DNA of 64,000 bases from the NCBI GenBank assembly GCA_945870425.1, contig CAMBSD010000007.1, positions 1 through 64,000 on the forward strand, given 5' to 3'. Below the pieces are notes generated by a model. That model had not been told where the DNA came from. It made no database searches and saw only the letters and a list, made by a program, of their open reading frames with translations. Below, one piece after another: positions 4,825-24,736 of the stretch. The position numbers and the translations under genes are program-made. The DNA is from Chitinophaga pinensis. GTDB taxonomy: Bacteria; Bacteroidota; Bacteroidia; UKL13-3. The number at the start of each line of letters is the position of its first letter. Position 1 is the first letter of the stretch.

Positions 4825-7800
4825 ATGAAATTATTTATTTGGAAATTTGAATTAAAGACCTGGATTATTTGTATTACGCTCATTTTATTTTCAAGCCTAA
4901 GTGCACAAGCACAAGAATCGAAAGAAATCATTAAAAACTATATTCAGGCGCAAGCCAAAGAAAATATTATTGATCCTAAAGATTTTTCAGAGTGGGCATT
5001 GACAGACGAATATACCGACAAAGGTACAGGAATAACCCATGCCTACATGCAACAAATGTATCATGGCATACCCATATTTAATGCCATTAGTGTTGTGGCA
5101 ATTAAAGATTCAAAAGTGGCCGTTTTCAGACCAGGTATTGTTCCTTACTTAAACAAAAGAGTAAAAACGGATGTACCTACTTTAAGTCCTGAAGAAGGTG
5201 TAAATGCAGCATTGGCGTGCATTAAGAAAAAAAGCAAGAATTTATCTTTTATTGAAAAAGACGAAATAAAACATAAATATACCTACACTGATAAAAGCAT
5301 TTCTGTGAGCCCAATAGAAGTTCAACTGACGTTTGTTGCTATAGATGATAAAGTACTATTATCTTGGAATGTAAGTGTTGAATTAATTAAAGAACCTCAT
5401 TGGTGGAACATCAGAGTTGATGCTGTAAAGGGAAAGTTTATCGAGAAAAATGATTTTACGAGATCATGTAATTTTGGAATAGCACCCGCAAGTGCCATGG
5501 CTCCGCCACCACCTGCCCCTTTTGCTCCTGATTACAGGGTATTTGCTTACCCAATAGAAGCACCCACATTTGGAAGCCGAGCTTTGATATCTAACCCATC
5601 AGATCCTATTGCGTCTCCTTATGGTTGGCATGATATTGATGGCGTTGGGGGGGCTGAATACACCATTACTAGAGGCAACAATGTGCATGCCTATGAAGAC
5701 CGAAACAATGATAACCTTCCCGGATACTCGCCCGATGGCACATCAAACCTGGTTTTCGACTCAGTTTATTCTTTCACGAATGCTCCACTACTAAATCAAC
5801 ATGCCTCAGTAACCAATTTGTTCTATCTTAACAATTATATTCATGACTATTTATACCGTTTAGGTTTTGATGAAGTCTCTGGTAATTTCCAACAAAACAA
5901 TTATGGAAATGGTGGCTTAGGTTCAGATTATGTAAATGCAGAAGGATTTGATGGGGGTGGCACAAATAATGCTAACTTTTCAACCCCTGCTGATGGTTCA
6001 AAACCAAGAATGCAGATGTATCTTTTCAATTCCACTACGCCAAATAGAGATGGTTCTTTTGATAATGGGATTGTTGCCCATGAATTTGGGCATGGTGTTT
6101 CTAATCGCTTAACAGGCGGACCTTCTCAAGCTAGCTGTTTATCCAATGCCGAACAAGGTGGCGAAGGTTGGAGTGATTGGTTGGCTTTGATGCTCACCAT
6201 AAAACCTGGTGATGTAGGAGCAACCCCAAGGGGAATGGGTACATACGCAACAGGTCAAGCCACAAATGGTACTGGTATTAGAAGATATCCTTATAGTACT
6301 GATATGACAATCAATCCTCAAAACTATGCGAACATTGCAAATACCACTAGTGGTTCACAAGTGCATAACATGGGCGAGATTTGGTGCGATGTATTATGGG
6401 ACATGTCTTGGTTATTGATGGACCAATTTGGATACAGTTCAGACCCAACTATTGCAACAGCAGGTAATAACATTGCCATTAATTTGGTATTACAAGGAAT
6501 GAAACTTCAGCCATGCAATCCTGGTTTTTTAGATGCACGAAATGCTATACTTGCTGCAGACTCTTTGATATATGGTTATTCTCATAAATGCCTTATTTGG
6601 CAAGCATTTGCTAGAAGAGGTATGGGTTGGAGTGCTTCACAAGGTAGTGCTAATGTTGCAGGTGATGAAACAGCTGCTTTCAATATTCCTAATTTTTGTG
6701 TGGCTGTTACCCAAGCACCAGTGTCAAATTTCACTGCAAGCACAGTTACACCTGCCTGTGGAGGAAGCGTGAGTTTCACTGATCAATCAACACAAGCCCA
6801 GTCTTGGTTATGGTATTTTGGCGACAATACAACTTCAACAGCGCAAAACCCTTCCAAAGTATATACTTCACCTGGAACTTATACAGTTTCATTGGTGGTT
6901 ACAAATACCTTAGGCATTGACTCTTTGGCTAAGGTTAGTCATATCACTGTTGCTCCTACTTTTACAACAACAATTACCAATACTCCTGTGATAGGCTGTA
7001 GCGGAGATCCAGTTCAATTGACAGCTACACCAAGTGTAACAAATAATACTATTTATAATGTCAGCAATATTCCATATGCTCCAGTGGTTGGTGTTGGAAC
7101 AGGTTCGACAATAACGCTTACTGATGATCAGATGAGTGCAGCTTTGCCAATTGGTTTCACATTTAATTTCTTTGGAAATAATTATACGTCTTTCTACAAA
7201 TGTTCAAATGGGTTTATAACCTTTACAGCAAATCAAACATCCGCTACTTCCAGATACGGTGTGGCCATCCCTAACACAGCTACACCAAATAATTTTATTG
7301 CGGCAGCTTGGAGTGATTTGAATCCTGTTAGCACTAATGGTAGTAAAATAAGGTATATCACTACAGGTACAGCCCCCAATAGAAAATTAATTATAAACGA
7401 TTCAACTTTTCATTATGGCGGAACTGCTTATCCTATGATTGTTCAAACCATCTTATATGAAACAAGTAATATTATTGAGGTGCATAGTTCAACCATTACA
7501 AATACTTCACCTATAACAGCAACTAATGTTACTAAAACCATCACCCAAGGAATTGAAAACTCAGCTGGAAGCAAGGGTTATATTGTGCCAGGTCGAAACA
7601 GTGCCATCTTCTCAACTAATAATGATGCATATCGTTTCACACCTGGTTATTCTTATTTATGGACAACAGGGAATTTAAATGGCGCCACCCAAACCTTTTA
7701 TCCAACCTCTGCAAGCGGAACAGTATATGATGTAACGGTAAGTGATGGAACCTGCACGGCCACTTTTAGTTCCCCAGTGATTAATGTTTATCCTAAACCA

Positions 7801-10770
7801 ACTGTTACCATTAATGCCTCTTCTCAATCAGTGTGTTCAGGCAATCTGTTAACGCTAACAGCAACTGGTGCAAATAATTTAGTATGGACTGGTGGAGTAA
7901 GCAACGGTGTACCGTTTATTCCAAGTGCTACTTCTAAATATATAGTTACTGGCACAGATGCCAATGGATGTATTGGCAAAGATTCTATTACAGTGCCTGT
8001 TAGTAATTGTCTTAATACTGATTTGGCAAATTTGAGCATAAGTTCAGGATTACTTTCACCATCATTTGTAAAAACCACGTTGAATTATACCTCACTAGTT
8101 GCAAATAATATTAGTAGTATAAATATTACCCCTACTGCAGATGATGCATTGGCTGCACTCCAAATAAGAATTAACAATGGAACTTATTCCGATGTTTTGA
8201 GTGGATCAGTTGCATCAATTACAGGTCTAAACATAGGAACCAACGCGATTGATATCAGAGTAACTGCAAGAGATAATGTAACAACGAAGGTTTATACAAT
8301 TATTGTCAACCGATCTGCTTATTCAAACACCAACTTATCTAATATTAATTTAATTGGCGCACCTTATTCTCCGCTCTTCAACTCTGATACTTTAACATAC
8401 TCATCTACTGTATTATTTGGAGTAAATAAAGTCAAGGTATCTCCTATTGTCTCAGATTCCTCATCAAGAATAAAAATTATAATAAACAATGGTGCATATG
8501 TAAATATCAAAAGCAAGGATACCTCTGATTTCTTGGCCTTGAACATTGGTTCAAATACTATTTATATAAAAGTAGAAGTTCAAGACTCTACCATGAGTAA
8601 AATATATACCATCCATATTAACAGAGCAAATGCTGTTCCTCCTAGTGCTATGAATTATTCACCAAATTCAATAAATGCAATCAGGACAATATCATCTATA
8701 AATATTATACCAACATATTCTGGTGATTCAGTTACGTTTTTCCAAATAAATCCTTTATTGCCCAGTGGCTTAACATTTAATAATCTTACAGGTAGGATAA
8801 GTGGCACACCATTGGTGCTTTCTGCACAAACCAATTATACCATAACAGGTGTAAATAATGGAGGCAATACATCAACTATTTTCAGTTTGTCAGTTGTTGC
8901 TGTAGCACCAAGTAATTTAAAATACAATGATTCAGTAATTATCGCGACTCGAACAATTACTAATATCAGCTCAACTGCAAGCGCAAGCGGTGACTTGATT
9001 ACCAAATATAGAATTACGCCAAACTTACCAACTGGAATAAAATTAGATTCAACTACGGGTAAAATAAGTGGAATAGCTTCGGTGCTTTCTCCATTGACTA
9101 CCTATACCATAACTGGAAGTAATACAGGAGGTAGCGCCACAGCTAGCTTCACATTATCGGTAAATGCCATTGCTCCAAGCAATTTAAGATTCTCTGATTC
9201 TTCTGTAGTAGCCACTCGTACTTTAACAAACATTAATGCTAATCCTACTAACTCAGGCGATTTGATTACTAAGTATACTATTGACCCTGCTTTACCAATT
9301 GGATTAAATATTGATTCGGTTACTGGTGAAATAAGTGGAACTCCACAGGTAATATCACCATTCACTACCTATAACATTTTGGGTAGTAACTCTGGGGGTT
9401 TTGCTCTGGCATCATTCAAATTAACTGTAAACGCAATTGCCCCAAGCAATTTAAATTACACTGACTCTATTATCATTGCTACAAGAACCTTATCTAATAT
9501 CAATAACATCCCAACAAATACTGGTGACTTAATTACCAAATACAGTATCAGTCCTGCTTTGCCAATTGGATTAAGTTTGGATACAGTTACGGGAACCATT
9601 AGTGGAATTCCATTGCAAACTTCTCCTTTTATAACATACATAATTACAGGAACAAACTCAGGAGGAAGCACAACAACTACCTTAACTTTAACCGTTAATC
9701 CAATTGCACCAAGTAATTTAAAATACAGTGATTCAGCAGTTGTAGCAACACGTTTATTAACACATATAAATGCCATACCAAGTCATTTGGGTGATTCAAT
9801 TGATAGCTATCAAATCAGTCCTGTTTTACCTGCGGGTGTGAGTTTGGATTCAATTACTGGTACTATAAGTGGAACACCTTCCCAATTGATGCCATTAACT
9901 CTTTATACCATTACTGGTTCAAATTCTGGAGGTAGTGCAAATGCGATATTCTCTTTAACTGTTAATTCCATTGCGCCAAGCACTTTAAAATACTCGGATT
10001 CAAATATGGTTGCCACAAGAACCATTAGCAACATTAATTCAAATCCGATATATGTAGGTGACTCAATTACATTGTTTAAAATCAATCCATCTCTTCCAAT
10101 GGGTGTAAACTTAGATTCGATTACTGGAAAAATTTCAGGCATACCAACTGTACTTTCTCCATTAACAACTTATACCATCACAGGAACCAATTCAGGTGGA
10201 ACTACCAATGCTACTATCAAATTAATCGTAAAAGCAATTGCACCAAATGCCATGAGTTACGCACCTAGTTTGGTTATAGCTACCAATGGACTTACCAATA
10301 TTAGTTCTATTCCAAGTTATACTGGTGACTCGATTACCAGTTTCTCAGTAGCACCTACATTCCCTTCAGGTATCAGTTTAAATACTTCTACAGGTTTAAT
10401 CAGTGGCATTCCAGGTGTGGTATCAGCGCAAACCTTGTATACCATTACAGGAAGTAATACAGGAGGTAGCACAAATGCTACATTTACCTTAACTGTAAAC
10501 AAAGGAACAGGTATCAATGAAACAGAATTGATAAGCACAGCCATATACCCTAACCCAACAACGGGCATCGTAAACATCAGTTCAAATCAAGCTATTGAGA
10601 ATATTGAAGTATATGATGTAACAGGCAAATTGGTGTTGAGCCACAGAAATGATAGCCATCAAAAGCATATTGAATTAGATTTATCTGCCTTTAGCAATGG
10701 TATTTACTTCATTCAAACCCATAACCAAAACGCTGAAACGACCTTGAACAAAGTGGTCATTTCAAAATAA
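4825..10770 (+). CDS. Secreted M36 (fungalysin-like) metallopeptidase, T9SS cargo
   Basis: This 1981-residue protein is exported and probably attached to the cell surface or released by T9SS. A signal peptide covers residues 1-30, followed by an FTP-like propeptide. The M36 catalytic site is HEFGH (H419, E420, H423), with the third zinc ligand in MGEIW (about E518). After it come a PKD domain (about 632-712), a large region with a cysteine-poor beta fold, two cadherin-like beta-sandwich domains (about 1063-1165 and 1166-1268), seven Ig-like (He_PIG) repeats of 89 residues (1273-1895), and a T9SS C-terminal domain starting YPNPTTG (about 1907). A TACTTTTG at 4758-4765 may be its -7 element. 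It is far longer than typical M36 enzymes because of the repeats. Confidence 0.93.
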   Translation: MKLFIWKFELKTWIICITLILFSSLSAQAQESKEIIKNYIQAQAKENIIDPKDFSEWALTDEYTDKGTGITHAYMQQMYHGIPIFNAISVVAIKDSKVAVFRPGIVPYLNKRVKTDVPTLSPEEGVNAALACIKKKSKNLSFIEKDEIKHKYTYTDKSISVSPIEVQLTFVAIDDKVLLSWNVSVELIKEPHWWNIRVDAVKGKFIEKNDFTRSCNFGIAPASAMAPPPPAPFAPDYRVFAYPIEAPTFGSRALISNPSDPIASPYGWHDIDGVGGAEYTITRGNNVHAYEDRNNDNLPGYSPDGTSNLVFDSVYSFTNAPLLNQHASVTNLFYLNNYIHDYLYRLGFDEVSGNFQQNNYGNGGLGSDYVNAEGFDGGGTNNANFSTPADGSKPRMQMYLFNSTTPNRDGSFDNGIVAHEFGHGVSNRLTGGPSQASCLSNAEQGGEGWSDWLALMLTIKPGDVGATPRGMGTYATGQATNGTGIRRYPYSTDMTINPQNYANIANTTSGSQVHNMGEIWCDVLWDMSWLLMDQFGYSSDPTIATAGNNIAINLVLQGMKLQPCNPGFLDARNAILAADSLIYGYSHKCLIWQAFARRGMGWSASQGSANVAGDETAAFNIPNFCVAVTQAPVSNFTASTVTPACGGSVSFTDQSTQAQSWLWYFGDNTTSTAQNPSKVYTSPGTYTVSLVVTNTLGIDSLAKVSHITVAPTFTTTITNTPVIGCSGDPVQLTATPSVTNNTIYNVSNIPYAPVVGVGTGSTITLTDDQMSAALPIGFTFNFFGNNYTSFYKCSNGFITFTANQTSATSRYGVAIPNTATPNNFIAAAWSDLNPVSTNGSKIRYITTGTAPNRKLIINDSTFHYGGTAYPMIVQTILYETSNIIEVHSSTITNTSPITATNVTKTITQGIENSAGSKGYIVPGRNSAIFSTNNDAYRFTPGYSYLWTTGNLNGATQTFYPTSASGTVYDVTVSDGTCTATFSSPVINVYPKPTVTINASSQSVCSGNLLTLTATGANNLVWTGGVSNGVPFIPSATSKYIVTGTDANGCIGKDSITVPVSNCLNTDLANLSISSGLLSPSFVKTTLNYTSLVANNISSINITPTADDALAALQIRINNGTYSDVLSGSVASITGLNIGTNAIDIRVTARDNVTTKVYTIIVNRSAYSNTNLSNINLIGAPYSPLFNSDTLTYSSTVLFGVNKVKVSPIVSDSSSRIKIIINNGAYVNIKSKDTSDFLALNIGSNTIYIKVEVQDSTMSKIYTIHINRANAVPPSAMNYSPNSINAIRTISSINIIPTYSGDSVTFFQINPLLPSGLTFNNLTGRISGTPLVLSAQTNYTITGVNNGGNTSTIFSLSVVAVAPSNLKYNDSVIIATRTITNISSTASASGDLITKYRITPNLPTGIKLDSTTGKISGIASVLSPLTTYTITGSNTGGSATASFTLSVNAIAPSNLRFSDSSVVATRTLTNINANPTNSGDLITKYTIDPALPIGLNIDSVTGEISGTPQVISPFTTYNILGSNSGGFALASFKLTVNAIAPSNLNYTDSIIIATRTLSNINNIPTNTGDLITKYSISPALPIGLSLDTVTGTISGIPLQTSPFITYIITGTNSGGSTTTTLTLTVNPIAPSNLKYSDSAVVATRLLTHINAIPSHLGDSIDSYQISPVLPAGVSLDSITGTISGTPSQLMPLTLYTITGSNSGGSANAIFSLTVNSIAPSTLKYSDSNMVATRTISNINSNPIYVGDSITLFKINPSLPMGVNLDSITGKISGIPTVLSPLTTYTITGTNSGGTTNATIKLIVKAIAPNAMSYAPSLVIATNGLTNISSIPSYTGDSITSFSVAPTFPSGISLNTSTGLISGIPGVVSAQTLYTITGSNTGGSTNATFTLTVNKGTGINETELISTAIYPNPTTGIVNISSNQAIENIEVYDVTGKLVLSHRNDSHQKHIELDLSAFSNGIYFIQTHNQNAETTLNKVVISK
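8641..10509 (+). repeat. Seven tandem 267-bp repeats inside the M36 gene
   Basis: Seven units of 89 codons follow each other without linkers. Each encodes a putative Ig (He_PIG) fold with the pattern ATRT-NIN---GD-ITKY-I-P-LP-G----TG-ISG--------TYTITGSN-GG. Units 2-6 are closest to each other, and units 1 and 7 have diverged most (AMNYSPN and AMSYAPS starts), as expected if the array grew from the middle. Copy number may vary between strains. Confidence 0.85.
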
Positions 10771-10948: not shown

Positions 10949-12983
10949 ATTTCATTTCCTCTAGTTTCTTTTGAAGGCCAAACATCTCATCTCTTAATCT
11001 TGCAGCCTCCATAAAATCAAGTTCTTTAGCTGCTTTCTGCATGCGTTTCTGGGTTTCATCAAGCATTTTTTGTAGCTTAGGTTTGCTCAAATACTCTACA
11101 ACAGGATCTGCGGCAATGTTGAATTCTTCAGGTTCTACATACGCTCTTCCTATTGGCTCTCCACCTAATGTTTTGGCATCAGCTATACTGGTTTGTTTTA
11201 TAATCTCATCCTTACTTCTTCTAATGGTAGTTGGGGTAATACCATGCTTGGTATTATATGCAATTTGAATATCGCGTCTTCTATAGGTTTCATTAATGGT
11301 GCGCTGCATGCTATCTGTCATCACATCCGCATACATAATTACCTTGCCCCTGTCATTTCTAGCTGCACGACCAATGGTTTGAGTCAATGATTTATCATTC
11401 CTCAAAAAGCCTTCTTTATCTGCATCCATAATAGCTACCAAACTTACCTCCGGTAAATCCAATCCTTCTCTTAATAAGTTCACACCTATAAGCACATCAA
11501 ATACCCCCAAGCGAAGGTTTCTCAAAATCTCAACACGATCAAGTGTTTTCACTTCACTGTGAATATAACTACATTTAATATTCAAACGAGTCATATACTT
11601 GCTTAACTCCTCCGCCATACGTTTGGTTAAGGTGGTCACAAGTATCCTATCACCCATTTTAATGCGTTCATCTATTTCATCTAATAAATCATCCACCTGA
11701 TTCAAACAAGAACGCACCTCGATGGTAGGATCTAATAAGCCAGTTGGACGAATGATTTGTTCTACCAAAATACCACCCGCTTGTTGTATCTCATAATCTG
11801 CAGGCGTAGCACTCACATAAATGGTTTGTGGTATCATGCCTTCAAATTCAGAAAAGGTAAGAGGTCGATTATCCATTACTGAAGGAAGTCTAAACCCATA
11901 TTCAACTAAGTTTTGCTTTCTGCTTCTATCACCACCATACATGGCACGCACTTGTGGCATTGATACGTGGCTTTCATCCACCATCAACAAAAAGTCGTTC
12001 GGAAAATAATCTATAATACAGAATGGTCTATCACCCGCATTTCTCTTATCCATATAGCGACTGTAATTTTCAATACCACTGCAATAGCCCAACTCACGCA
12101 TCATTTCAAGGTCGAAGTTGGTTCTTTCTTCTAAACGTTTTGCTTCTAAAAACTTACCTACGCTTTTAAAATATTCGATCTGCGCCACCAAATCATCTTG
12201 AATTTGTATCATGGCCTCTCTTAGTTGATCCTTAGGAGTAACATATAAGTTAGCAGGGAAAATGGCAATGTCTTTTGCCGGCTCTTGTTTCTTTCCACTC
12301 ACAGGGTCAATGATATCAGTACTTTCAACCTCATCTCCAAAAAACTGAATACGAAAAGCAAAATCTGCATAAGCAGGAAATACATCTACAACATCTCCTT
12401 TTACACGAAAGTTACCCCTATTAAATTCAGCCGTGGTGCGGCTATACAATGAATCAACCAAAGAAAACAAAAACGTATTTCGGCCAATTTTCTGACCTAC
12501 ATGTATTCTAATGGTACTCTTCTCGTAATCCTTAGGATTTCCTGCACCATAAATACAACTTACCGATGCTACCACAATAATATCCCTCCTACCACTCATG
12601 AGAGTTGATGTTGTTGCCAACCTCATTTTCTCTATCTCTTCATTGATGGCAAGGTCTTTTTCGATATAAGTATTACTAGAAGGAATAAAGGCCTCTGGTT
12701 GGTAATAATCGTAATAACTTACAAAGTATTCAACTTTATTGTTTGGAAAAAACTGTTTAAACTCGCTGTATAATTGGGCTACTAGGGTTTTATTATGACT
12801 TAATATCAAGGTGGGTCTTTGCACCTGTTGTATGACATTGGCCATAGTAAAGGTCTTACCACTGCCCGTAACCCCCAATAGCACTTGTGATTTATCACCA
12901 TGCTCCAAGCCCTTTACCAATGCTTTGATAGCACCTGGTTGGTCGCCTGTTGGAACATAATCTGAAATGATTTGAAATTGCAA
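10947..12983 (-). CDS. uvrB: UvrABC system protein B
   Basis: This 678-residue helicase-like subunit verifies DNA damage in nucleotide excision repair, together with UvrA and UvrC. The Walker A motif GVTGSGKT lies at residues 37-44, the beta-hairpin (YVSYYDYYQPEAF) near 95, the DEAD-like DESH box near 340, and the QTIGRAARN motif VI near 535. The C-terminal UVR domain that contacts UvrC (LDFMEAARLRDEM) is present. Length is normal. It stands alone; uvrA is not in the window. The ATG is preceded by an A/T-rich 60-base region. Confidence 0.97.
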   Translation of the reverse strand: MQFQIISDYVPTGDQPGAIKALVKGLEHGDKSQVLLGVTGSGKTFTMANVIQQVQRPTLILSHNKTLVAQLYSEFKQFFPNNKVEYFVSYYDYYQPEAFIPSSNTYIEKDLAINEEIEKMRLATTSTLMSGRRDIIVVASVSCIYGAGNPKDYEKSTIRIHVGQKIGRNTFLFSLVDSLYSRTTAEFNRGNFRVKGDVVDVFPAYADFAFRIQFFGDEVESTDIIDPVSGKKQEPAKDIAIFPANLYVTPKDQLREAMIQIQDDLVAQIEYFKSVGKFLEAKRLEERTNFDLEMMRELGYCSGIENYSRYMDKRNAGDRPFCIIDYFPNDFLLMVDESHVSMPQVRAMYGGDRSRKQNLVEYGFRLPSVMDNRPLTFSEFEGMIPQTIYVSATPADYEIQQAGGILVEQIIRPTGLLDPTIEVRSCLNQVDDLLDEIDERIKMGDRILVTTLTKRMAEELSKYMTRLNIKCSYIHSEVKTLDRVEILRNLRLGVFDVLIGVNLLREGLDLPEVSLVAIMDADKEGFLRNDKSLTQTIGRAARNDRGKVIMYADVMTDSMQRTINETYRRRDIQIAYNTKHGITPTTIRRSKDEIIKQTSIADAKTLGGEPIGRAYVEPEEFNIAADPVVEYLSKPKLQKMLDETQKRMQKAAKELDFMEAARLRDEMFGLQKKLEEMK

Positions 12984-13067
12984 TTTTTTTTAAAATTATA
13001 AGATGGAATACGTTTAGAAATATATGAATTTAAAATCAAAAATATTCTAAACTTGTTTTTTGATATT

Positions 13068-13271
13068 GAACCCCTTCAGGGTTCTTAATGTTACTTTTGA
13101 TATTTTTCCGTAGGTTTCACCTACGGCTATTATTATTTTACCCCTTCGGGGTAAGCTATTTAATTGCATACAAGACCAATTGTTCTCAATCCTGAAGGGA
13201 TTGAATAATAATAGCTCCGCATGAAATGCGGTAACTAGTATGAAAAAAGGAAAACAACCACGAAGTGGTTG
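13068..13271. repeat. Symmetric array of six short hairpins with TTC/GAA loops
   Basis: Six perfect stem-loops: 13068-13084 (GAACCC, loop CTTCA), 13108-13126 (CCGTAGGT, TTC), 13138-13154 (TTACCCC, TTC), 13186-13204 (TCAATCC, TGAAG), 13217-13231 (CCGCAT, GAA), 13255-13271 (CAACCAC, GAA). The gaps are 23, 11, 31, 12 and 23 bases, so the layout mirrors itself. The 11/12-base gaps share GCTATTATTATT in opposite orientation. This is an inverted pair of a three-hairpin module, like a REP doublet, next to the RAYT-like gene. A 90-residue open frame across it is an artefact. Confidence 0.8.
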
Positions 13272-13278
13272 AATAGAG

Positions 13279-13725
13279 CTATCGTAAGTACTTTTCATCA
13301 AATTCAATTTGTTGTTCAACTAGCAGCTGTTTATATTCTTCATAAAACGATAGGGTTTCATGATGCTTTTCTTGATTTTTAACATATTCAATAAGCCTAT
13401 CTTTTTCTTTTAAAGAATAAGTAAAAGCAGCATACCCATCTTGCCAACCATTAAAATTTGTAAATAAGTTTTCTTTTTTAATATATTCACTGCTAGCAAC
13501 TTTAATATCTTTTATAATGGCTGAAAGAGCTATGCTGGGATGGATATGCGTAACAATATGTATATGATCTTCAATGCCGCCTATTTGATATAAATGACAA
13601 TTTTTATTCTTCAATATTCCCCAAATAAATTTATGTAGCTCCACTCTTTTTTCAACCTTCAAAGTTCTTTCTCTGTTCTTTGTACTGAATACAATTTGAA
13701 ATAATATTTGCGTGTAGGTGCTCAT
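13279..13725 (-). CDS. IS200-like / RAYT-type Y1 transposase
   Basis: This 148-residue protein belongs to the Y1 HUH single-strand transposases (Transposase_17, REP-associated type). The HUH metal motif is in DHIHI (H54, H56), the catalytic tyrosine is Y114 in the Y-x-x-N-Q-x-x-HH context (YVKNQEKHH), and the C-terminal FDEKYLR is typical of the Bacteroidota members. It looks intact. The hairpin array begins 7 bases after the stop. There is no accessory tnpB and no second copy in the window. Such proteins bind and move REP-like hairpins rather than a normal IS; that role here is inferred. Confidence 0.88.
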   Translation of the reverse strand: MSTYTQILFQIVFSTKNRERTLKVEKRVELHKFIWGILKNKNCHLYQIGGIEDHIHIVTHIHPSIALSAIIKDIKVASSEYIKKENLFTNFNGWQDGYAAFTYSLKEKDRLIEYVKNQEKHHETLSFYEEYKQLLVEQQIEFDEKYLR

Positions 13726-13873
13726 TTCGTTGCCTTTATAAATCTTAACAAAGCCGTTATTATTTTCTAATCGATTTAGAATTATGATTAATTTTTTTTA
13801 GGCATATTGAATTGTTTAACAATTTATCAATTGCTAAAATATTTTATAAAATTTCAAAAAAAACATTTGCTAA

Positions 13874-13903
13874 ATTATTCAAGCCCTTTTGGCTTGAAAT
13901 AAT
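13874..13903. repeat. Imperfect hairpin upstream of the transposase
   Basis: The core TTCAAGCC (13878-13885) pairs with GGCTTGAA (13891-13898) around loop CTTTT, and the flanking A/T bases pair with one bulge. It lies between the LptE stop and the transposase start. It could be a weak terminator for lptE (no clear T-run) or the other boundary of the mobile unit. Confidence 0.45.
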
Positions 13904-13908
13904 CTAAT

Positions 13909-24088: not shown

Positions 24089-24205
24089 GCTGCGAAAGTA
24101 CGAAAATAATAAAATCCAAAACTGACTTTTTTCATATACCACATTGATTTGATTACAGTATGCACAAAGTCACAAAACTGACAGATGATTTGCAATCTAA
24201 AATAT

Positions 24206-24736
24206 CTAATCAACCCCTGCTGCATCCAGTTTGCCTTTAGCAAAGTCTGCTGCAAAGTCCACAAAAACTTTATATGCTTGGGTAAAGGTGAATTTATTCT
24301 CTGCCGTTTTCTCTATGATATTCCTGCGATTCAAGGTAGTAAAGAACTGCTTTCTACTAAAGCTGTCTTTCATTTGGTTGTTATTCAATATCAATTCAGC
24401 ATAAGATGAATTGTAAAAATACTCATCAATCTTATCCATTTCAAATTCAGCATATTGAATTTCTTCCAAAAAATTCTTTCCATCTTTATCTAATTCAAAA
24501 CTTAGAACAGCAAAGAAAAGACAAATATCTCGGCTCAATTGTTCGCCTGTTTCGTAAGATAGGATAAAAGCAAAATCAGTTTTCACTTCAAGTTCGTATG
24601 CAAAGCTTTCTCTGAAAAACTTAGCATAAAAATCTTCGCTCTCTTTCAGAGAAACAAACTTGGGGTCGCTGGCAAGTATAAACTTACCGCCCATTAAATC
24701 GCTTACGATGTCTTTGTGGTATCTAGGAAATTCCAT
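24206..24736 (-). CDS. jetB: MukE/MksE-like (JetB-type) condensin accessory protein
   Basis: This 176-residue acidic protein resembles the MksE subunit, a double winged-helix protein that joins the kleisin in Mks/Wadjet complexes. The C-terminal part (FSRKQFFTTLNRRNIIEKTAENKFTFT) reads as a winged helix. It overlaps the preceding gene by 14 bases, which suggests coupled translation. It is the last gene of a four-gene operon, before ccmC. Assignment relies on context and on a general match; a profile search would settle it. Confidence 0.7.
   Translation of the reverse strand: MEFPRYHKDIVSDLMGGKFILASDPKFVSLKESEDFYAKFFRESFAYELEVKTDFAFILSYETGEQLSRDICLFFAVLSFELDKDGKNFLEEIQYAEFEMDKIDEYFYNSSYAELILNNNQMKDSFSRKQFFTTLNRRNIIEKTAENKFTFTQAYKVFVDFAADFAKGKLDAAGVD

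Follow-up and report, generated by a model that had tools for sequence, protein, structure and literature searches.

The closest described systems are built around HUH/Y1 transposases. In IS200/IS605 elements (IS608, ISDra2), hairpins adjoin the gene; IS200 ends carry same-strand hairpins and are not known to leave a target duplication. In REP/RAYT systems (REPtrons, with BIMEs or REPINs; TnpA-Y1 class 2), a HUH/Y1 gene is flanked by palindromic repeats, often inverted, and the same palindromes occur scattered through intergenic DNA, singly or as inverted pairs. REP repeats are described as species-specific (PMC6006769), and in some REP systems loop and foot are reported to weigh more than stem sequence (PMC8266576). 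According to the experiments quoted from that study, swapping the whole stem for its complement affects cleavage by TnpAREP of Marinomonas Mb only moderately, and some loop positions of two REPs tolerate no change (PMC8266576). TIRtrons (TIRYT) hold a Y1 gene between long inverted repeats, some of them 'double palindromic' and recurring across the genome; a GGGGWSAS motif is common to some of the TIRs, and no three-hairpin module is described in the cited sections (PMC3733652). Their enzymes probably correspond to TnpA-Y1 subclass 2.1 (PMC6006769). Two further subclasses occur in Bacteroidota. Subclass 2.6 genes (Y motif YIH[QN]NP) are flanked by 'atypical secondary structures' with copies elsewhere in the genome, whereas subclass 1.2 enzymes are ~148 aa long, with DH[IV]H, WQ and Y---Q--HH motifs and low copy number, and are entered as REP 'no' in the table of Quentin et al. 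2018; the REP-search section of that paper is silent on manual inspection of subclass 1.2 (PMC6006769).

The locus described here shares with REP/RAYT systems the flanked gene and the dispersed palindromes, and differs from them in four respects. The module has three hairpins in ~100 nt, whereas a REP unit is one 20-40-nt hairpin; it has ATT/TATT at hairpins H1 and H3 instead of a GT[AG]G foot; the enzyme carries Y---Q--HH, whereas the class 2 Y motif ends in NP; and some module copies are flanked by 9-11-bp direct repeats. We read it as a REP-like system and, since it lacks three defining classical features (GTAG foot, single hairpin, class 2 enzyme), set it apart as a variant of REP/RAYT. 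The enzyme has the fold and catalytic residues of IS200/IS605 transposases, but the modules are inverted, face outward in opposite orientation and are dispersed alone. The structures flanking subclass 2.6 genes, which belong to another enzyme subclass, were compared with the module by description only. The supplements of the 2018 survey aside, we found no earlier description of a repeat partner of subclass 1.2 in the literature searched.

The six-hairpin array and the adjoining gene

In the window (the whole 64,000-nucleotide stretch of DNA analysed), a sequence-only reading had described six perfect hairpins with constant loops and mirrored gaps at 13068-13271 and interpreted them as a single three-hairpin module present in two inverted copies that have diverged. 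All six hairpins were confirmed at these positions, with loops and gaps as described; the gaps measure 23-11-31-12-23 nt, and the inner ones carry CTATTATTATT and its inverse. We built a covariance model, R1, solely from nine own-genome copies of the module, both window halves included. The array is an inverted pair of one ~100-bp three-hairpin module and abuts an IS200-like HUH/Y1 transposase gene, which the sequence-only reading had not mentioned. The features are as follows.

12980-13898, no strand assigned: stretch holding array and gene, with approximate ends, missing from G001 (same genus)
13060-13162, + strand: left three-hairpin module (H1, H2, H3; TTC loops), R1 110 bits, itself a row of R1
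13068-13084, + strand: H1 of the left module, perfect hairpin, loop CTTCA
13108-13126, + strand: H2 of the left module, perfect hairpin, loop TTC
13127-13137, + strand: linker CTATTATTATT joining H2 to H3 in the left module, conserved and unpaired
13138-13154, + strand: H3 of the left module, perfect hairpin, loop TTC
13179-13279, - strand: right three-hairpin module, diverged type, R1 93 bits, E 5e-15, itself a row of R1
13186-13204, - strand: H3 of the right module, loop TGAAG on the + strand
13217-13231, - strand: H2 of the right module, loop GAA on the + strand
13255-13271, - strand: H1 of the right module, loop GAA on the + strand
13279-13725, - strand: Y1 (HUH) transposase gene, 148 aa, PF01797 (Y1_Tnp) E 2.7e-22, NF033573 match
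13801-13904, + strand: possible decayed module upstream of the gene, weak R1 match of 23.9 bits, E 0.016 (L062 2020-2123)

The right module lies directly against the 3' end of the transposase gene and is directed away from it. Its match to R1 is obtained when the right half is reverse-complemented, but both halves were among the nine rows of the model. Folded as DNA, the array region reaches -47.8 kcal/mol, and shuffled sequences average -24.4 (z -6.2); none of 100 shuffles folds as well. Of the 22 stem pairs, 10 differ between the left and right halves at both bases yet still pair, 8 are identical, one differs at a single base and still pairs, and three fail to pair in one copy or in both. 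The halves agree at 0.43 of their stem bases, a low value that would suit a symmetry arisen by chance or by inert local duplication. This explanation, to which we give practically no credence, is refuted by the fold z, by the recurrence of the module and by covariation with controls. The stems of the left half are 0.91 identical to seven dispersed full copies of the own genome, and those of the right half 0.47. The left half is thus of the type dispersed in this genome, and because the halves differ in this way they look, by sequence, like two subfamilies. The two copies are inverted and diverged as had been proposed, but not simply the outcome of one local duplication.

The 148-aa protein matches NF033573, the IS200/IS605 family transposase model, and contains DHIH, WQ and Y---Q--HH. 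Its AlphaFold2 model (pLDDT 88, pTM 0.77) matches the structures of IS608, ISDra2 and E. coli RAYT. In alignment A5 (11 proteins), H54, H56, W94, Y114, Q118, H121 and H122 are invariant, and D53 and Q95 occur in at least 90% of the 11 rows. Judged by its motifs, the protein fits the published signature of TnpA-Y1 subclass 1.2 (DH[IV]H, WQ, Y---Q--HH, about 148 aa; PMC6006769). Eight further PF01797 matches, seven of them above the cut-off, lie elsewhere in the own genome (G000; contigs C17, C2, C1, C15, C6, C7), and one of these (L009) has Y...Q..HH with a hairpin CCATGAGC...GCTCATGG nearby.

Pairing, loops and feet of the module

Module copies were compared in three alignments. In A7, made from a sequence-only model with the best 150 of 263 matches, 22 of 22 stem pairs show two-sided changes and 93.5% of cells are paired. 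The two-sided cells number 591, against 165 in shuffles (0 of 500 had as many) and at most 64 when slid, with helix columns chosen for best pairing and shuffles that ignore relatedness. In the alignments fitted to the R1 structure, two-sided changes are found in 19 of 22 pairs (A3) and 21 of 22 (A6, the best 150 of 283 matches). The covariance-model search of the genome and its relatives, which the sequence-only reading had proposed as a check, found the module elsewhere with loops and pairing kept, the opposite of what that reading had named as refuting it, and the stems of those copies covary.

Three-nucleotide loops have the form TNC in 100 of 128, 120 of 143 and 110 of 140 cases at the three hairpins (330 of 411 in total), which is GNA on the other strand. 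At H2, 132 of 150 rows combine the TNC loop with T-A as the closing pair. The hairpins could act as RNA, either as bidirectional terminators or as a processed structured RNA beside the gene; five terminator-like sites occur in the region where shuffles give 0.5, and CTTCGG loops would also be stable as RNA tetraloops. Such a role appears very unlikely to us. No known RNA family was matched by Rfam up to E 1 at window 12900-13900. A terminator bias is not seen either, as the ORF neighbours of 14 single copies, by crude ORF calls and with two ortholog pairs among the copies, are 5 convergent, 4 divergent and 5 tandem. The H2 loop with its T-A pair would be more in keeping with GNA loops in DNA than with UNCG loops in RNA, and GNA is reported as the triloop of extraordinarily stable DNA minihairpins (PMC4686876); this stability argument rests on the literature because the DNA folding parameters used gave equal energies for every loop tried. 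Inverted flanking of the gene and dispersal would also be left unexplained by an RNA function.

Mean stem identity is 0.84 within genomes and 0.63 between them, the within-genome figure being dominated by one genome (G031, 946 of 1222 pairs; single genomes range from 0.70 to 0.86). Stems are therefore genome-specific and drift between lineages, as in REP families. The sequence-only reading had proposed that selection keeps pairing and loop but not stem sequence, in contrast to classical REPs. The constraint on pairing and loops stands, and stems covary, but they are not free within a genome, and the contrast with REPs was overdrawn. The consensus 5' foot of H1 and H3 is unpaired and reads ATT/TATT; by analogy, this motif just 5' of both hairpins is a candidate counterpart of the REP guide. 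A GT[AG]G tetranucleotide at a hairpin 5' foot was not found in the module consensus. A fourth helix, a closing stem of TTCGAAAC and GTTTCGAA, can be drawn in some copies; it is indistinguishable from inverted ends and was not counted.

Distribution of the module and linkage to the transposase clade

The own genome contains at least nine full modules (the same nine as the R1 rows, two of them in the array) and one partial module at E <= 1.3e-4, with 150 of 1368 candidates scored. Across 58 genomes, own included, R1 matches at E <= 0.001 occur in at least 28, with up to 44 in one genome, under strict filters and with scoring limited to 70 candidates in each genome. In G000 and G001, 11 of 14 single copies lie clear of any ORF of 70 aa or longer. 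G031, where blocks were picked as gene-less inverted pairs with H1 at the centre, has many of these pairs, and they are dispersed like BIMEs or REPINs.

We assigned genes to the clade of the window gene at 47% identity or more over full length. Among 13 genomes with R1 matches at E <= 1e-9, eight carry a full-length gene of this clade, against two (G011, G047) of the other 45; G033 has a partial gene of the clade only. Five of the 13 module-rich genomes (G001, G009, G024, G025, G034) have no full-length clade gene, which counts against a partnership of enzyme and module; two of them are incomplete assemblies (G001 70%, G009 89%). At the level of single loci, 15 of 16 clade gene copies from the own genome and relatives, including the window's own gene and three partial genes, have an outward module (E <= 1e-4) within about 100 nt. 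The exception, L094 (48% identical), shows no module at E <= 1e-4 near the gene and likewise counts against the partnership.

A further 80 loci in other genomes were chosen solely on their protein, as the best 80 of at least 458 relatives. R1 matches at E <= 0.001 are present in all of these best 80 (283 matches in 260 kb). R1 was built from own-genome copies alone, yet it matches every protein-picked locus, which supports the partnership. In 73 of these best 80 loci, the gene has an outward module no more than 150 nt away, with an overlap of up to 30 nt allowed, and in 47 it has one on each side. None was found within this distance at seven of the 80 (L207, L211, L213, L216, L237, L267, L279), which counts against it. 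By record title, the loci belong to Bacteroidota, Balneolota, Ignavibacteriota, Chlorobiota, Cloacimonadota, Neomarinimicrobiota, Verrucomicrobiota and Hydrogenedentota, with one locus each titled Calditrichia and Candidatus Parabeggiatoa. Most are MAGs; cultured strains among them include Pedobacter, Algoriphagus, Emticicia and Labilibaculum. The link to a RAYT gene that the sequence-only reading had suggested looking for is present in the form of a RAYT-like Y1 gene, and a widespread Y1 group tabulated without repeats gains a repeat partner in loci from at least eight phyla by title.

In a protein tree of 82 rows, 61 clade rows form one side of a branch with 100/97 support, against 20 more distant homologues; the tree has few columns and took 50 of the 80 protein-picked loci (L275 was dropped for a stop codon, others were left out). 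Y---Q--HH is present in 80 of the 82 proteins, a set that includes the 20 sister-branch rows and one outgroup. In the 300-nt flanks of the 20 sister homologues (about 35-45% identity) we counted 39 strong hairpins, where mononucleotide shuffles give 4.1; five of the 20 have no strong flanking hairpin. The corresponding figures for the flanks of the best 80 of at least 458 relatives are 455 and 18.8. Several sister-branch hairpin pairs are ~50-55 nt apart, and at one sister locus similar hairpins stand in tandem. Because sister flanks are rich in hairpins, a hairpin partner seems common in the subclass, and the three-hairpin form seems typical of the window gene's clade. Module architecture thus seems to follow the enzyme branch, with three hairpins in the clade and often two ~50-55 nt apart in the sister branch. 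Upstream of a sister-clade Y1 gene, L078 (G008) has at 2299-2866 tandem hairpins CAACTCCG(C/T)TAGGAGTTG, mostly 56 nt apart.

We consider it likely that the array is part of a REPtron-like unit that combines a subclass 1.2 HUH/Y1 transposase with a three-hairpin recognition module, the latter most likely bound as folded single-stranded DNA. The module is probably the landing mark of the enzyme. It flanks the gene in outward inverted copies and is also dispersed without the gene. The enzyme would bind a single module in this folded form and recognise it by the shape of the stems, the three-base loop (TNC/GNA) and the unpaired bases at the hairpin foot rather than by stem sequence, and would nick and join beside the module. 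Binding, cleavage and the strand that is read are what we infer. For E. coli REP, the loop is reported to play only a structural role and two stem positions to be important (PMC8266576), which counts against this reading. The many natural variants of stem, loop and foot make the rules by which HUH enzymes recognise folded DNA directly testable.

Insertions, direct repeats and empty sites

Two genomes of the genus differ in the presence of the unit. Between the next left gene, which we take to be uvrB-like, and the next right gene, G001 has 63 nt in place of the ~920 nt of array and gene. The array-gene unit was either gained in the own genome or lost in G001; nothing that aligns to it is left at the junction in G001, and its precise limits cannot be read.

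Single modules differ between genomes as well. Four single-module insertions in G000/G001 (L002, L003, L006, L101) have exact direct repeats, two of 9 bp and two of 11 bp, at nearly equal distance from the core and with partly inverted ends around TTCGAAAC; in L002 and L003, the 11-bp repeats are at the same positions. We searched for empty sites with the flanks of seven loci in G000 and G001, and two were readable. L006 is bounded on both sides by TTACAAACC, and the empty site in G001 holds one target copy, TTACAAACT, in flanks that are 83% identical. L101 (G001) is bounded by ATTACTAAT and corresponds to an empty, diverged site in the window at about 24199-24210. The L102 counterpart retains an apparent module remnant and may be a deletion in G000, and the L105 counterpart overlaps a weak module match (21.7 bits). 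In the same search, the junctions of the L008 and L098 counterparts were unalignable and L103 had no counterpart. The flanks of the G031 copies were too diverged for any empty site to be readable in same-genus genomes.

In G000, repeats of at least 9 bp surround 3 of 9 blocks, where mismatched flanks give an expectation of 0.00; in G001 they surround 1 of 8 (0.29 expected). G039 has repeats in 4 of 14 blocks (0.46 expected), of which L173 and L177 share an end sequence, not a clean repeat; in the same genome, L174 combines an 18-bp inverted end with a 10-bp repeat, and L175 has a 12-bp repeat. Within 45 nt of the G031 blocks, 0 of 18 have such repeats. L127, L184, L190 and L191 are situated in longer repeats and were not counted as target duplications. 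The inverted end CAATGTCATTAAGTT of G039 copies (L172, L173, L174, L177, others) also occurs directly beside module remnants near contig ends, and it may belong to another multi-copy element.

The repeat-flanked insertions and empty sites support mobility of the module, and spread by this enzyme rather than another is what we infer. The 9-11-bp repeats count against the partnership of enzyme and module, because canonical IS200-type Y1 transposition is not known to us to leave such repeats. Either another enzyme moves the repeat-flanked copies, or this enzyme works differently. In the first case, the dispersed copies would be MITE-like and moved in trans by a DDE-type transposase with a 9-11-bp stagger, with the hairpins carried along or original Y1 sites captured inside the element. 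The exact repeats and partly inverted ends of the four G000/G001 insertions agree with this, as do the empty sites of L006 and L101 and, in G039, the 18-bp inverted end and 10-bp repeat of L174 and the 12-bp repeat of L175. Against this account, the linkage of module and Y1 gene spans phyla. The exact 11-base end GTGTTCGAAAC also argues against it: all five exact sites in G000 and G001 are at module copies, and no other element with this end, such as a partner transposon, was found in the two genomes. Module ends differ between G000/G001 and G039, and the G031 blocks are free of repeats within the range searched. We regard this explanation as possible, though on the unlikely side. In the second case, the subclass 1.2 enzyme would use a three-hairpin, possibly cloverleaf-like single-stranded substrate and its insertion would leave 9-11-bp target-site duplications. 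We find this quite doubtful, and we know of no transposition with target-site duplications of this length in the HUH/Y1 enzyme superfamily. The direct repeats open to experiment the question of how REP-like elements spread.

Several other repeats were noticed beside module copies. An apparent second hairpin family (TTCGGGATTTGCAAATCCCGAA and GGATTTGCAATCC types) occurs in the genus at L002 1650-1740 and in the right flanks of L007 and L102, once with a module inserted near the loop. In the right flanks of L127, L166 (G006) and L180 (G034), modules are followed by a shared ~150-nt tail ending ...TAACTTGTTTTAAT..TGTAATAAATATGTTTGT, and a longer element may exist. At L184 and L190 (G024), modules are embedded in a larger tandem repeat that contains the palindrome TTGTTGGTG...CACCAACAA. 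Elsewhere in the window, 4825-10770 encodes a 1981-aa protein with many similar C-terminal repeats and an HEFGH motif, which we take to be a zinc-protease motif; the protein is presumably a secreted metalloprotease.
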